A stretch of DNA of 23,813 nt from a virus: IMG/VR virus record IMGVR_UViG_3300044623_000265, positions 1 through 23,813 of that record. One strand, 5' to 3'. Under the pieces are notes generated by a model, which did no database searches, was not told where the DNA came from, and saw nothing but the letters and a program-made list of their open reading frames with translations. This document shows, in pieces, positions 3,703 to 17,733 of this stretch. The translations under genes were made by a program, and so were the position numbers. How positions within the stretch are numbered: position 1 is the stretch's first letter; each line of letters opens with the position of its first letter.

Positions 3703-4087
3703 GAACAAGAGGGCTAACTTGTTCCATTGTACCAGAAGTTTGAGTGGATGACAATGACTTGAGGTTGATGATCTTGGTATTAACTAAGAATGTGATGACT
3801 GCAATAGCACCAATTGCAGACCAGACTTTTCTTTCTAAAAAGTTTATTTTAGCAAGCAACTTGTTATTGTCGTCGTCAATTTTGTCGCGTAACTTATCAA
3901 GTTTGTCAAATAATATTTCGTCGGTTTTTTCCTGTTGGGATATTCTTTCTTCATGGACGGCGAGCATACGAGATACATTCGTATTTACCTCGCTCATTTT
4001 CATAATTGTATGGTCTAGTTTTAAAACTAAACGTTCAAAGTCAGTTATTTTTTGTTCCAGAATTGCAACCTTAATTTCCTCAGACAT
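3689..4087 (-). CDS. Small coiled-coil protein with C-terminal membrane anchor (XhlA-like layout)
   Basis: A 132-residue protein of unknown function. Residues 1 to 90 are charged and heptad-rich (IKVAILEQKITDFERLVLKL, LFDKLDKLRDKIDDDNNKLL), predicting a long coiled coil. A single hydrophobic segment follows at about 92 to 110 (VWSAIGAIAVITFLVNT), then a short polar tail. This order, including the LERKVW junction, resembles the XhlA-like hemolysin/holin-associated family and similar small proteins I recall from marine T4-like phages. A role at the membrane or in lysis is inference only. It sits between small structural-type genes and the primase. Its ATG overlaps the previous stop by eight bases (ATGTCTGA), and its end overlaps the primase start. 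No strong ribosome-binding site is visible, so translational coupling is likely. Confidence 0.8.
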   Translation of the reverse strand: MSEEIKVAILEQKITDFERLVLKLDHTIMKMSEVNTNVSRMLAVHEERISQQEKTDEILFDKLDKLRDKIDDDNNKLLAKINFLERKVWSAIGAIAVITFLVNTKIINLKSLSSTQTSGTMEQVSPLVRELS

Positions 4088-4328
4088 TTTTGATAGACCT
4101 TAAGACATTTTTGCCTTTCATCAGGTCACGGTACATTTTAACATATCCCTTTGGATAGTTTTGATATCTTTTCTTTCTTCTATCTACGGTTCCAAGTACA
4201 GGATCATAACCAGCAACAGGGCCTTGTGGAGCTGCAGCACCAGTGTATCCACCGGCACCAACAGACATTGTTGGTTCCTCTTGCAAATATCGAACAATAT
4301 TAATAATTTTCTCTAGGCGATAGTCCAT
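4080..4328 (-). CDS. Conserved hypothetical protein, 82 residues
   Basis: I do not know its function. The N-terminus (MDYRLEKIINIVRYLQEEPT) looks like an amphipathic helix. A flexible Gly/Ala/Pro stretch follows (VGAGGYTGAAAPQGPVAGYD), then a basic C-terminal half with a KKRYQNYPKGYVKMYRDL stretch. I recall proteins of this layout in cyanomyoviruses beside the 123-residue gene upstream. The start codon shares one base with the previous stop (TGATG), and its own stop overlaps the next ATG by eight bases, so it belongs to a coupled cluster. A small virion or assembly component is possible, because the cluster begins with a virion-like protein behind a late promoter, but nothing in the sequence proves it. 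Confidence 0.75.
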   Translation of the reverse strand: MDYRLEKIINIVRYLQEEPTMSVGAGGYTGAAAPQGPVAGYDPVLGTVDRRKKRYQNYPKGYVKMYRDLMKGKNVLRSIKNV

Positions 4329-5317: not shown

Positions 5318-5325
5318 TATTTATA
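5318..5325 (-). promoter_or_regulatory. T4-type late promoter (perfect consensus)
   Basis: The minus strand reads TATAAATA, identical to the T4 late promoter recognised by the gp55/gp33 system. It lies 34 bases upstream of the ATG at 5284, which leaves room for a leader of about 25 bases. It directly continues the T-tract of the terminator at 5329 to 5356, so transcription stops and restarts at nearly the same place. Confidence 0.8.
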
Positions 5326-7432: not shown

Positions 7433-8449
7433 TTACTTTTTTACTTCTTCGTCAAATGAAAGATCGATTCTCCAGTTTGAATAACCTTCTTTCATTCTTT
7501 TCTTTGCAATCGCCTTACCGATTGCCTTACGACGATTATGCAGATACTTATCCGACTTATCAGTGTCACCATCATTATCGATGTCGGAATCTTCTTGACC
7601 AACTGCATCCATCGCTTCCTTCATAGCCATCTTAGTTGCGGTTGCGTACATTACTTCTTTAGCTCTTGATCCATAACGTTGTTCAAATCCCTTCTTGGAT
7701 TTCTTCATACCCTTTACATATTCTTCTCTCTTCTTCATTTCACCTTCGGTCATTTTTTTCTCGTCAATGATTTCGATTTCTTCTTTCATTTCATTGTGCT
7801 TTGGATCTTTACCAATTTCATCGAATCTCTTTCTCTCGGTTTCTCTATTAATGGCACTGACAATCTTCGATGATCTTTCCATTGCCTTTTCTTTCTTCTT
7901 ACCTTTGGAAGCGAGAGCGGTTCTGGCAAGATTACCAGCCTTACGATACATCTTGGACTTGGGAAGATCTTTCTTCTCTTCACCAACCAGTTCAAGTTGT
8001 TCCTTCATATCGTCATCGTCATCTTCTTCTTCTTTCTCCTTCGACCAACCACCTTGCATCACACCTCTCATTGGGATCTTTGTCTTCTTACGCTTCTTCT
8101 CTGGCATATCACTGCCAAGTTTTTTATCTCTCATACGATCATACTCTTCCTCACCAAGAAACTCTTCACCAAGAAGTTTTTTCTTAGCAAGAGCCTTAAC
8201 AGGAGCTGAAGCGGGTGAAGAACCCAAGAGGGACATATAAACTTTTTTCACTTCCTCTTTATTTGCACCAGGCTTAACTTTTCCCTTAGCCTTATACTTG
8301 ATGTCAGAGGCTAACTGTGATGCCTGTTTTTGAATATTTGTAGCACCAGCAGCGTGACCTTTACGCACCGTTGTTGGGGCAGCTTCATGGATGGAAAGGT
8401 ATGCATCCATTAACGATTTGTCAAGTTTGTTAGAGCTTTCAGGAAACAT
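7433..8449 (-). CDS. Highly charged late protein with calcium-loop motif
   Basis: A 338-residue Lys/Glu-rich protein of a type common in marine T4-like phages; function unknown. It starts MFPESSNKLDKSLMDAYLSI, followed by HEAAPTT. The Ile-His-Glu triplet fits the T4 prohead protease rule, as in other head-internal proteins. A strongly acidic run (KEEEDDDDDMKE) lies near residues 139 to 150. Near 270 the segment GSRAKEVMYATATKMAMKEA is one I recall as widespread in these phages. At about 287 to 300 the sequence DSDIDNDGDTDKSD has the DxDxDGDxD spacing of EF-hand/dockerin/thrombospondin calcium loops. Start: ATG at 8449. A GTG at 8461 adds four residues but would leave only a few bases of leader after the late promoter at 8477 to 8484. 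It overlaps the preceding gene by 11 bases. Confidence 0.85.
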   Translation of the reverse strand: MFPESSNKLDKSLMDAYLSIHEAAPTTVRKGHAAGATNIQKQASQLASDIKYKAKGKVKPGANKEEVKKVYMSLLGSSPASAPVKALAKKKLLGEEFLGEEEYDRMRDKKLGSDMPEKKRKKTKIPMRGVMQGGWSKEKEEEDDDDDMKEQLELVGEEKKDLPKSKMYRKAGNLARTALASKGKKKEKAMERSSKIVSAINRETERKRFDEIGKDPKHNEMKEEIEIIDEKKMTEGEMKKREEYVKGMKKSKKGFEQRYGSRAKEVMYATATKMAMKEAMDAVGQEDSDIDNDGDTDKSDKYLHNRRKAIGKAIAKKRMKEGYSNWRIDLSFDEEVKK

Positions 8450-9635
8450 TTCTCTTGGCACGTTTTCTTCTAAATTTATTTATAAAATTAAGAATGGGTG
8501 CGTTGCTTGTAAGACGTTGCACATATTCACGATACTCATCAGTCGCAACTAATCTCTGATCAGAAGGAACACCCGAGACATCTGTAAACTTTTCAGTGAT
8601 GTCTTTGATCCAAGACTTGAACATAATATTATCTTCGGTTACGGCAATGATGTAATTTGCACCTTTACGAATAATCTTACCAACTAATCCAGTGTTATCG
8701 TTCTCAACCAAGTCACCAACCTGAAAGAGATTACCTTTGATGTAATTCTCTCTCAAAGTTTTCCATTCAAACTTAGGAGCGATTCTCCACATTTCAGTTT
8801 GAACTTCTTTCTCTTTCACTCCCATATTCTTTCTCAGAGTTGCATATAACTTCTGAGTGTTTTCATCATCAAGGGCTTTGGGTACACCTTTTCTAAAGGT
8901 ATCAAAATCACCCTTCACGGCAGCTGCACGAAGTTTCGATGCAGACATTCCTTCAACACCCTCAGATTCTGCATCTCTTTCTCCTGCAGAGATCACACGA
9001 ATGCGATCAAAATCATACAGGTCTCCATTGTATTTGTTTGCAAGATTCTCAAACTCTTTAAGTCGATCAGCACCAACAACGATGTTTACAGTTTTGGCAC
9101 CACGACCATAGGCACCTTTAAGAACATCAAAGATTGTTTTTGCACTTGGATCATTTACAATATGTTCCGCGTGTTTGGGGAACATTGATTGCATATAGGA
9201 GATCTTAGTGTTTGGATCTAATGGATTCTTCTTCGGATCATTTGATCGAGAAGGATAGATGATGTAGTCTCCTTTACCTGCAACTTGTTTTACACGATTC
9301 AGAAGTTTTTCGTGACCAACAGTAGGAGGATTGAAACGACCAAATGCAATCGTCAGATCTGCAGCCTCTCCTTCTTTCTTTCGAATCTCTTCTCTTTCAG
9401 CCTTTTCTTGTTCTGCAGCAGCTTGTTGTTGTTGAACTCCAATCTCAGCCCTTTCTTGTGGAGTTGGAGGGCGTTGTTTGCCGAAAAACTTTAATTTTCC
9501 GTTCACAGTTTTAGCGACAAGATTACCATCACGATCATACCAGTCGCCGTGACCATCTCCTTTCAAGCCCATTTGTTTGGCTTGATTAGATGCTTGTGTC
9601 ACAACTTCTGCAATAAATTGACTAAAACTCTTCAT
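8439..9635 (-). CDS. HIGH-superfamily nucleotidyltransferase with capsid-targeting-like N-terminus
   Basis: A 398-residue, probably multi-domain enzyme. Residues 1 to 10 (MKSFSQFIAE) closely resemble the capsid targeting sequence MKTYQEFIAE of T4 internal head proteins, and the Ile-Ala-Glu fits the prohead protease cut site. Residues 24 to 52 include DGHGDWYDRDGNLVAKT, a segment I recall from other marine phages. A Gln/Glu/Ala linker follows to about 90. Residues 93 to 275 form the nucleotidyltransferase domain: AFGRFNPPTVGH (the T/HxGH nucleotide-binding motif), IVVGADR, and GMSASKLR at 229 to 236 in place of the (I/S)STxxR motif. The substrate could be NMN, phosphopantetheine or another phosphate compound; motifs alone do not decide. 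Residues 305 to 346 (QVGDLVENDNTGLVGKIIRK) look like a KOW/SH3-type barrel. A late promoter lies at 9676. I infer that the enzyme is packaged and injected. Confidence 0.88.
   Translation of the reverse strand: MKSFSQFIAEVVTQASNQAKQMGLKGDGHGDWYDRDGNLVAKTVNGKLKFFGKQRPPTPQERAEIGVQQQQAAAEQEKAEREEIRKKEGEAADLTIAFGRFNPPTVGHEKLLNRVKQVAGKGDYIIYPSRSNDPKKNPLDPNTKISYMQSMFPKHAEHIVNDPSAKTIFDVLKGAYGRGAKTVNIVVGADRLKEFENLANKYNGDLYDFDRIRVISAGERDAESEGVEGMSASKLRAAAVKGDFDTFRKGVPKALDDENTQKLYATLRKNMGVKEKEVQTEMWRIAPKFEWKTLRENYIKGNLFQVGDLVENDNTGLVGKIIRKGANYIIAVTEDNIMFKSWIKDITEKFTDVSGVPSDQRLVATDEYREYVQRLTSNAPILNFINKFRRKRAKRNVS
8477..8484 (-). promoter_or_regulatory. T4-type late promoter (perfect consensus)
   Basis: The minus-strand TATAAATA matches the T4 late consensus exactly. 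It lies inside the last codons of the nucleotidyltransferase gene and 27 bases before the ATG at 8449, so the leader would be about 20 bases. It probably drives the charged protein and the basic protein downstream. Confidence 0.75.
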
Positions 9636-9675: not shown

Positions 9676-9683
9676 TATTTATT
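9676..9683 (-). promoter_or_regulatory. Late-type promoter box AATAAATA
   Basis: The minus-strand AATAAATA differs from the T4 late consensus at the first base only. It sits in the 59-base gap before the nucleotidyltransferase gene, 40 bases upstream of its ATG at 9635, a spacing similar to the perfect box at 5318. Confidence 0.65.
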
Positions 9684-16933: not shown

Positions 16934-16941
16934 TTATTTAG
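16934..16941 (-). promoter_or_regulatory. Late-type promoter box CTAAATAA
   Basis: The minus-strand CTAAATAA overlaps the TAA stop of the 60-residue peptide gene and lies about 90 bases before the ATG at 16846. It could allow late transcription into the polymerase unit, through the hairpin. Support is positional only. Confidence 0.35.
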
Positions 16942-17120
16942 TCTCCATCACCGCCGTCACCACCTCCACCATCACCACCATCACCATTTCCAGAATCACC
17001 ACCAGCACTTGATGCAGACCTCTTTGCATAGGCTTTTCCTTTCGGTAATCCTAATTGAGGTTTAGCCATTTTATAGGAAATTGTTTTAATCTCGGAAATG
17101 AACTGATGAAAAGATTTCAT
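16938..17120 (-). CDS. 60-residue peptide with capsid-targeting-like start and Gly/Asp tail
   Basis: The product starts MKSFHQFISE, very close to the T4 capsid targeting sequence MKTYQEFIAE, and the Ile-Ser-Glu fits the prohead protease cut rule. The middle is basic (KMAKPQLGLPKGKAYAKRS), and the last 20 residues are almost only Gly and Asp (GGDGGGGDGGDGD). On the plus strand the tail appears as repeats of CACCAC/CATCAC units, more GC-rich than the surroundings. If it is cleaved after residue 10, a short basic-acidic peptide would remain inside the head, like the small internal peptides of T4. No ribosome-binding site is visible before the ATG at 17120. A late-type box overlaps the hsp20 stop 13 to 20 bases upstream. 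An alternative start at the internal Met (MAKPQLG) would lose the targeting segment. Confidence 0.7.
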   Translation of the reverse strand: MKSFHQFISEIKTISYKMAKPQLGLPKGKAYAKRSASSAGGDSGNGDGGDGGGGDGGDGD

Positions 17121-17132
17121 TGTTTTTTATTT

Positions 17133-17140
17133 GTATTTAG
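17133..17140 (-). promoter_or_regulatory. Late-type promoter box CTAAATAC
   Basis: The minus-strand CTAAATAC overlaps the TAA stop of hsp20 and precedes the ATG at 17120 by 12 bases, so its transcript would have almost no leader. The same CTAAATAC octamer occurs at 10645 before another late gene. Confidence 0.45.
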
Positions 17141-17571
17141 AGATAATCTCTTCGAGCGTGATGATCAGGAACTACCTTACCAAGAACAATAGTCAAAAGC
17201 CCATCTTCAAATGTTACTGCTCGCACTTCCGTGTCATCGGATAATGTCCACGATCTCTTGAAAGATCGTTGAGCCAATCCCTTATGGACGTAGTGGGTAT
17301 CAGACTCTTTGTCTTCTTTTTGCCCTTCGACAAAAAGTTTTCCATACTCTGTGTATACATTGACTTCCTCCTTTTTAAATCCAGCAAGTGCAAGTTCTAA
17401 ACGAGATTCTACGTTACTCAGTTGAACGAGATTGTATGGTGGATAATTAGAAGTTGTTTCGTGAAGATTGAACAGACGATCAAAGTATTCATCAAGACCA
17501 ATACTATTGCGATTGATCCTGTCAAAAAGAGCAGGCAAATCCGCAGCAGTATACCTTGTAAGGTTAGTCAT
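17137..17571 (-). CDS. hsp20: Small heat shock protein, Hsp20/alpha-crystallin family
   Basis: A 144-residue ATP-independent chaperone. Genes of this family are a hallmark of T4-like cyanophages, where they may hold phage or host proteins folded during infection. The N-terminal arm is MTNLTRYTAADLPALFDRIN with a DEYFDRLFN helix. The alpha-crystallin domain runs from about residue 45, with LELALAGFKKEEVNVYTEYG, KLFVEGQKED and the family's C-terminal consensus as VTFEDGLLTIVL near 125. The end (GKVVPDHHARRDYL) lacks a clear I-x-I motif, which in cellular homologues links dimers into larger oligomers. The ATG at 17571 has GGAG eight bases upstream; an upstream in-frame start adding 17 residues has no such site. 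A late-type box lies at 17629, and a terminator separates it from regA. Confidence 0.93.
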   Translation of the reverse strand: MTNLTRYTAADLPALFDRINRNSIGLDEYFDRLFNLHETTSNYPPYNLVQLSNVESRLELALAGFKKEEVNVYTEYGKLFVEGQKEDKESDTHYVHKGLAQRSFKRSWTLSDDTEVRAVTFEDGLLTIVLGKVVPDHHARRDYL

Positions 17572-17628
17572 TATGGTAGCTCCTTTAAAAGCGAGTTTGT
17601 GTTTTGTGGACCCTTTCGGCATCCAATA

Positions 17629-17725: not shown

Positions 17726-17733
17726 ATATTTAT
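17726..17733 (-). promoter_or_regulatory. Late-type box AATAAATA at regA stop
   Basis: The minus-strand AATAAATA overlaps the regA TAA stop. A transcript from it would begin near 17718 and run straight into the terminator at 17649 to 17682, giving an RNA of about 70 bases. The same octamer precedes the nucleotidyltransferase gene at 9676. Confidence 0.35.

Follow-up and report, generated by a model that had tools for sequence, protein, structure and literature searches.

A T4-type capsid-targeting tag on a nucleotidyltransferase of a T4-like cyanomyovirus suggests packaging of the enzyme in the phage head

A 398-residue enzyme of a T4-like cyanomyovirus is probably an internal head protein that is directed to the capsid by a T4-type capsid targeting sequence (CTS), cut and carried with the DNA, and that likely acts as a cofactor adenylyltransferase. 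Its gene lies in the window, which is the whole 23,813-nucleotide (23.8-kb) fragment of IMG/VR record IMGVR_UViG_3300044623_000265, derived from a T4-like cyanomyovirus with Kyanoviridae relatives. The initial annotation had proposed a nucleotidyltransferase that may be packaged in the head and injected and that could act on NAD, CoA or a related cofactor; as a whole this interpretation is partly supported, and the observation behind it, a T4-like tag on the enzyme, is confirmed and extends more widely than first claimed. The protein, whose N-terminal sequence reads MKSFSQFIAEVVTQASNQAKQMGLKGDGHGDWYDRDGNLVAKT, was assigned to PHROG 395 'cytidyltransferase' (1e-105), and relatives were found in 536 phage records, of which cyanophages are the majority. 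The features of the window are as follows.

8439..9635, minus strand: CTS-tagged nucleotidyltransferase gene, 398 aa, phrog_395 'cytidyltransferase' (ORF, start MKSFSQFIAEVVTQ)
9606..9635, minus strand: capsid-targeting-like propeptide MKSFSQFIAE, residues 1-10, with predicted protease cut after E10 (conservation in relatives)
9480..9578, minus strand: 'GDGHGDWYDRDGNLVAKT' (GDGHG) module, residues 20-52, predicted small beta sheet (pLDDT about 90)
9375..9461, minus strand: predicted long helix joining the module to the enzyme domain, residues 59-87 (AlphaFold)
8826..9359, minus strand: adenylyltransferase-fold (HIGH-type) nucleotidyltransferase domain, residues 93-270 (pLDDT >90 in most blocks; Foldseek)
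9312..9344, minus strand: catalytic motif 1 FGRFNPPTVGH, residues 98-108 (alignments)
8928..8948, minus strand: catalytic motif 2 MSASKLR, residues 230-236, ISSTxxR-type (alignments)
8592..8729, minus strand: SH3/KOW-like small barrel, residues 303-348 (five predicted strands; phrog_4808 match)
9676..9682, minus strand: ATAAATA, late-promoter-like, 41 nt upstream of the enzyme ATG (motif scan)
7433..8461, minus strand: downstream gene, 342-aa charged protein (ORF; own ATAAATA at 8477-8483)
17137..17622, minus strand: Hsp20 gene, ahead of the second CTS gene (phrog_432, 4.7e-57; ATAAATA upstream at 17727-17733)
16938..17120, minus strand: second CTS-bearing gene, 60 aa, MKSFHQFISEIKTI..., Gly/Asp-rich tail (ORF)
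17091..17120, minus strand: CTS-like propeptide of the second CTS gene (sequence)

The enzyme begins MKSFSQFIAE/V, the slash marking the predicted cut, and T4 IPII and IPIII begin MKTYQEFIAEA in the T4 record; F4, F7 and I8-A9-E10 are all present, bearing out the claim that the N-terminus mirrors the T4 CTS. A tag-like start is kept in 84 of 88 relatives, which were chosen by homology. Among 43 distinct relatives positions 1, 2, 7 and 10 are invariant (F7 in 43/43), position 4 is F in 41/43 and position 8 is I or L in 41/43, with positions 3, 5, 6, 9, 12 and 13 variable, and E10 is likewise invariant in alignments of 59 and 68 sequences. Residues 4 and 7 of the T4 CTS are needed for targeting and residues 8 and 10 for cutting, according to a review of Black's work (PMC9026906); as judged from the alignments, the tag in the enzyme relatives is constrained exactly at these functional positions. 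Residues 8-10 supply the (I/L)-x-E motif that had been taken for the cut site of the prohead protease, and the same motif recurs where the capsid protein is predicted to be cut on maturation. The predicted sites are SFLTE/AEI in T4, which we take to be the maturation site of its capsid protein, and LLTE/APT, LME/APT, LLSE/AVP and MLNE/VAV in the aligned counterparts of four cyanophages, so that the expected cut of the tag, E/A or E/V after L/I-x-E, follows the same consensus. The tag is kept in relatives from which the next 50 residues, including the GDGHG module, are absent (L025, L033-L041), and untagged homologues occur in Caulobacter phage Cr30, two jumbo phages and P-HM1; the tag is therefore a detachable element. 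The window also holds an 82-aa gene, MDYRLEKIINIVRYLQEEPTMSVGAGGYTGAAAPQGPVAGYDPVLG... (4080-4328, minus strand), which duplicates the stretch immediately past the cleavage site of the major capsid protein, its N-terminal arm (PHROG 696 major head protein, 1e-10), and shares its capsid-arm motif with the S-CREM2 virion protein gp160.

A degenerate tag pattern occurs twice in the window, both times at an ORF start, namely those of the enzyme and of the 60-aa gene beside hsp20. The latter (17120..16938, minus strand), which begins MKSFHQFISEI, answers the suggestion that the same start be sought elsewhere in the genome; it is a real conserved gene with 13 related loci, beside hsp20, and the tag is its best conserved part. 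Scanning of 20 phage records (about 3.3 Mb) with MK-x-[FY]-x-x-[FY]-[IL..]-x-E gave 24 matches versus 0 for a reversed control, those in T4 being the positive controls IPII and IPIII, and gp61.1. The stricter pattern MK-[S/T..]-F-x-[Q/E]-F-I-[A/G]-E-A was found in 117 IMG/VR stretches versus 0 for a control with positions 6 and 7 swapped, both scans being complete; a shifted-spacing control pattern matched 51 times, mostly in short ORFs. Among the matches listed for a looser IMG/VR scan, 105/124 had an in-frame stop at most 15 codons upstream and the median ORF was 331 aa versus 37 aa in the control, indicating that these matches sit at gene starts; positions left free by the looser pattern were still T4-like among the matches listed (S/T at position 3 in 71%, Q/E at position 6 in 61%). 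T4-like core genes accompanied 83/120 and 46/114 CTS loci among the matches listed, versus 6/50 control loci. As a separate observation, T4 gp61.1 (L106; NC_000866, 18966-19130, minus strand) has the CTS-like start MKTFKEFIKE followed by NISIGTTSGAVVNKGP, which resembles the gp23 arm NIAAGQTSGAVTQIGP, and is possibly an unrecognised T4 internal protein.

The late promoter proposed for the gene corresponds to ATAAATA at 9682..9676 on the minus strand, a motif that is kept upstream of relatives: it lies within 90 nt upstream of 31/60 distinct members of the enzyme family versus 3/240 windows inside the gene, and upstream of tagged ORFs overall in 48/118 versus 2/353 among the matches listed. At all four sites in the window (5318-5324, 8477-8483, 9676-9682 and 17727-17733, minus strand) the motif reads along the coding strand, and an ORF start follows within about 110 nt. 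Since ATAAATA is not over-represented across the whole window (4 found versus 4.6 expected), the evidence for a late promoter resides in its position and not in its number. The 342-aa downstream protein carries a C-terminal DIDNDGD..DKYLHNRRKAIGKAI segment in common with P-HM1_163, and in S-SZBM1 and S-CREM2 the gene adjoining the enzyme encodes a virion protein according to the published virion tables.

Orthologues of the enzyme have been detected in the virions of four cyanophages, and all four have CTS-like starts. They include T4-GC190, named citidylyltransferase, of S-SM1 (MKKFSAFLNEA; PMC3037559), ORF91 'NMNAT' of S-SCSM1 (MKSFLQFLKEA; PMC9602691), gp140 of S-SZBM1 (MRFRQFIIEA, a shifted tag; PMC9146016) and gp154 of S-CREM2 (MKNFSSFLTEA; PMC10665884), and a similar protein of S-CBWM1 is cited alongside the S-CREM2 proteome (PMC10665884). 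Packaging in the head, which the initial annotation had put forward, is strongly supported by the published proteomes, at least four and all of phages other than the present one, that place orthologues in purified virions, and by a tag that keeps the key positions of T4. The S-PM2 counterpart, which has no tag and is placed after a DUF6267-like segment, was not detected in S-PM2 virions according to Sullivan et al. (PMC3037559); this negative is weak and suggestive only, because the same proteome also missed real structural proteins. In S-CREM2, 4 of 219 CDSs start MK.[FYL]..F[ILM].E and every one of these 4 belongs to the 52 proteins of the virion (p = 0.003). Restricting the tag to its strict form (3/3 in the virion, p = 0.013) provides the safer figure, because position 4 was loosened after L had been seen in other relatives. 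The four tagged virion proteins are the nucleotidyltransferase, a SAM lyase (PF23780, 2e-19), an APH-like kinase and a small protein represented by one peptide. Taken by itself, the cut site ([IL].EA within residues 1-20) was not predictive of S-CREM2 virion proteins (1/4), from which it follows that the aromatic spacing matters. The tagged small proteins gp191 and gp192 of S-SZBM1 are absent from the 30 virion proteins detected in that phage, and a search of the accessible literature for a neo-N-terminus at residue 11, N-terminomics or a delivery experiment found none. The same S-CREM2 operon encodes gp12 (L083, 7704-10313, minus strand), published as a virion CRISPR-Cas9 nuclease; it contains an internal CTS-like motif, RFASFMAEA, and a GDGHG module and has no Pfam family matches, and its Cas9 name looks doubtful.

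The AlphaFold model of the 398-aa protein, calculated from a 59-sequence alignment (mean pLDDT 80), comprises a helix at residues 4-10, a beta module at about 20-52, a long helix at 59-87, a well-predicted domain at 93-270 and a five-strand barrel at 309-348, followed by a helical basic tail. Structural similarity search with Foldseek revealed that the central domain fits PPAT folds about as well as NMNAT folds, with PPAT (1o6b; E 6e-6, TM 0.70 on target), NadM (2qjo; E 1.3e-5) and also NadD all matched at probability 1.0. Together with a Pfam CTP_transf_like match above cut-off (PF01467, 6.7e-5), these results sustain the earlier reading of a HIGH-type nucleotidyltransferase. The signature of the HIGH superfamily, T105-x-G107-H108 and S231/R236, is present on the right fold. 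In motif 1, G99, R100, P103, P104, G107 and H108 are invariant among aligned members, about half of whose rows came from a pattern scan selecting on this motif, and S231 and R236 of motif 2 are invariant in aligned members. A single-sequence PDB search with the enzyme returned no match, and a PDB profile search returned weak matches only, to 3gmi, 1f9a and 2qjo. The enzyme domain passed none of the curated NMNAT and PPAT equivalog cut-offs, scoring 17.9 versus 112.45 bits for the NCBIfam NMN/NaMN adenylyltransferase model TIGR00482. For the name given in databases, a glycerol-3-phosphate or choline-phosphate cytidylyltransferase, matches came only from superfamily models (PF01467, TIGR00125), and the top-ranking structural matches use ATP; with the scores of the NCBIfam NMNAT models also falling far short of their thresholds, we treat 'cytidylyltransferase' as a label of the databases.

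The KOW-like barrel of the initial annotation corresponds to five predicted strands at residues 309-348, a region with no Pfam KOW or other Pfam match. This barrel occurs alone in S-PM2p141 (L200, 5559-5834), there named ribonucleotide reductase, and the 'ribonucleotide reductase subunit' genes of PHROG 4808, like S-PM2p141, represent the SH3/KOW-like C-terminal domain of the enzyme family under a misannotation. In the same phage (S-PM2 103025-104804; L182/L200) a DUF6267-like gene is split over S-PM2p138 and p139, and the nucleotidyltransferase domain is joined to the second part. The GDGHG-type module is also present in the S-CREM2 virion kinase gp14, in two copies, and in gp12. Fusions of CTS, nucleotidyltransferase and a P-loop kinase (AAA_33/zeta-toxin-like), 426-435 aa long, were identified in L209, L224, L231, L286 and L301; in the first three, on which Pfam was run, the arrangement loosely resembles NadR, and the nadR-type score of L231 (1.2e-7) is far below cut-off.

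We propose that the enzyme would be synthesised late from its ATAAATA-type promoter, a step supported at the level of the motif, and that its first ten residues would then dock it onto the prohead scaffolding core. During maturation a gp21-type phage protease would cut after Glu10, and the freed enzyme would be retained in the head with the DNA, as the virion proteomes support. By analogy with T4, it may enter the next host together with the DNA, where it would most likely act as an NMNAT/PPAT-type adenylyltransferase on a nucleotide cofactor before phage gene expression.

The principal competing reading makes the protein a structural component of the head interior whose enzyme domain some lineages can do without. 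Under this reading the tag would package a head-core or structural protein that carries the enzyme domain as a passenger, dispensable in many lineages, and that serves chiefly to assemble the prohead or condense DNA; the GDGHG module, KOW-like barrel and basic tail are perhaps the parts involved. Tagged relatives with a lost T/HxGH motif (SKEH in L254, L258 and L302; SKNH in L285) speak for it, as do L234, which keeps tag, module and barrel and lacks the enzyme domain, the basic C-terminus KFRRKRAKRNVS, and the place of the enzyme among the cyanophage core genes, where PMC3037559 lists it next to proteins known to be structural in virions. These degenerate or missing active sites argue against a universal catalytic role; however, both catalytic motifs are kept in most relatives, including all four published virion orthologues, and in S-CREM2 a second enzyme, a kinase, is found among the virion proteins that bear the module, and we regard a purely structural function as unlikely.

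An injected anti-defence factor that rebuilds NAD+ by the NMNAT salvage step, where hosts destroy NAD+ on infection, appears quite improbable. One of the other tagged virion proteins is a SAM lyase, of an enzyme type known to block restriction; NadM and NadD are among the nearest folds, and the P-loop kinase fusions L209, L224 and L231 are reminiscent of NadR. Phage NAD+ reconstitution does exist in the form of NARP1 (PMC12774641). Against this, the NMNAT equivalog cut-off is unmet and PPAT fits as well or better, NARP1 relies on a different, Nampt-like ligase, and the reading presupposes NAD-depleting defence in the host. NARP1-type rebuilding was dropped as the main reading since Namat is Nampt-like and of another fold (PMC12774641). 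An ordinary late auxiliary metabolic enzyme carried over into virion preparations, its N-terminus a generic amphipathic start without targeting role, is very improbable: the S-CREM2 (PMC10665884) and S-SCSM1 (PMC9602691) reports leave carry-over open and peptide counts are low (2-3 in S-SZBM1 and S-CREM2), but different groups detected the protein independently in four phages, the tag is conserved in a position-specific way (117:0 versus the two-position swap) and 4/4 tagged S-CREM2 proteins are in the virion.

The preferred reading, a CTS-directed head protein, may extend beyond this enzyme: the ten-residue tag may mark proteins that phages inject into hosts. Grouping the tagged ORFs of 60 aa or more that the strict IMG/VR scan yielded (117 ORFs) gave 25 unrelated clusters, and only three of these ORFs correspond to this enzyme; family search recognised DUF6267, GNAT, HAD-like, glucosaminidase and DPBB proteins among the tagged cargo. 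A cluster of 27 small tagged proteins (L414, L433, L399, L392 and others) displays an H-[GY]-T-[ST] motif, and the best 18 PDB matches to its predicted fold are all of the ADP-ribosyltransferase-type Tpt1/KptA, with E from 1.5e-3 and low TM; such ADP-ribosyltransferase-like cargo, if true, would parallel T4 Alt. DUF6267 proteins with a CTS-like start were also noted in L207, L241, L278 and L310, and DUF6267 proteins are neighbours of the enzyme in S-SZBM1 and P-HM1. We lean towards the view that T4-like phages in nature use the tag as a general label for cargo, by which dozens of unrelated proteins are loaded into heads and injected as first-response effectors. Such cargo would comprise a SAM lyase, a protein kinase, the NMNAT/PPAT-like enzyme, ADP-ribosyltransferase-fold, GNAT, HAD and DUF6267 proteins and many small unknowns, and the tag alone would therefore predict the injected effector repertoire from sequence. 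The searchable open literature yielded no paper on tagged cyanophage cargo, and the accessible part of a T4 review that mentions cyanophage does not discuss it; the link between CTS and virion appears new, because virion presence and the T4 signal are each known and searchable papers leave the link unstated. Unexpected enzymes recur in cyanophage virion proteomes, whose authors could not separate cargo from contamination, and a T4-type tag on such enzymes offers both a mechanism and a sequence test. If this is right, effectors delivered before gene expression by T4-like marine phages would be readable from genomes and metagenomes, and existing mass-spectrometry data could be re-searched for N-termini at residue 11.

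The closest parallels to the tag are T4 IPII and IPIII, whose CTS (MKTYQEFIAE) matches that of the enzyme in the length and register of the N-terminal peptide, in the aromatic residues at 4 and 7, in I/L-x-E at 8-10 followed by a small P1' residue, and in virion location, which for the enzyme is that of its orthologues. IPII and IPIII are small basic proteins, whereas the cargo here is a 398-aa folded enzyme with no sequence relation to them beyond the tag, and cutting and injection of the enzyme are proposed by analogy. S-SCSM1 ORF91 and S-SM1 T4-GC190 are orthologues over the full length (51% and 43% identity, respectively) with the same tag and domain order; in their accessible parts, both publications report presence and mention neither a targeting signal nor a cut site. 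The SAM lyase gp6 and the APH/ChoK-like kinase gp14 of S-CREM2 display the same kind of tag, gp14 together with its two GDGHG-type modules, although their catalytic domains are unrelated to the nucleotidyltransferase. T4 Alt, an ADP-ribosyltransferase that is packaged, injected and cut by the head protease (PMC9026906), resembles the proposed enzyme in being carried in the head and differs in having other propeptides and an unrelated fold. CoaD and NadM/NadD have the predicted fold and the T/HxGH and SxSxxR signatures in common with the enzyme, at 10-17% identity, while the enzyme adds the module, the barrel and the tag.
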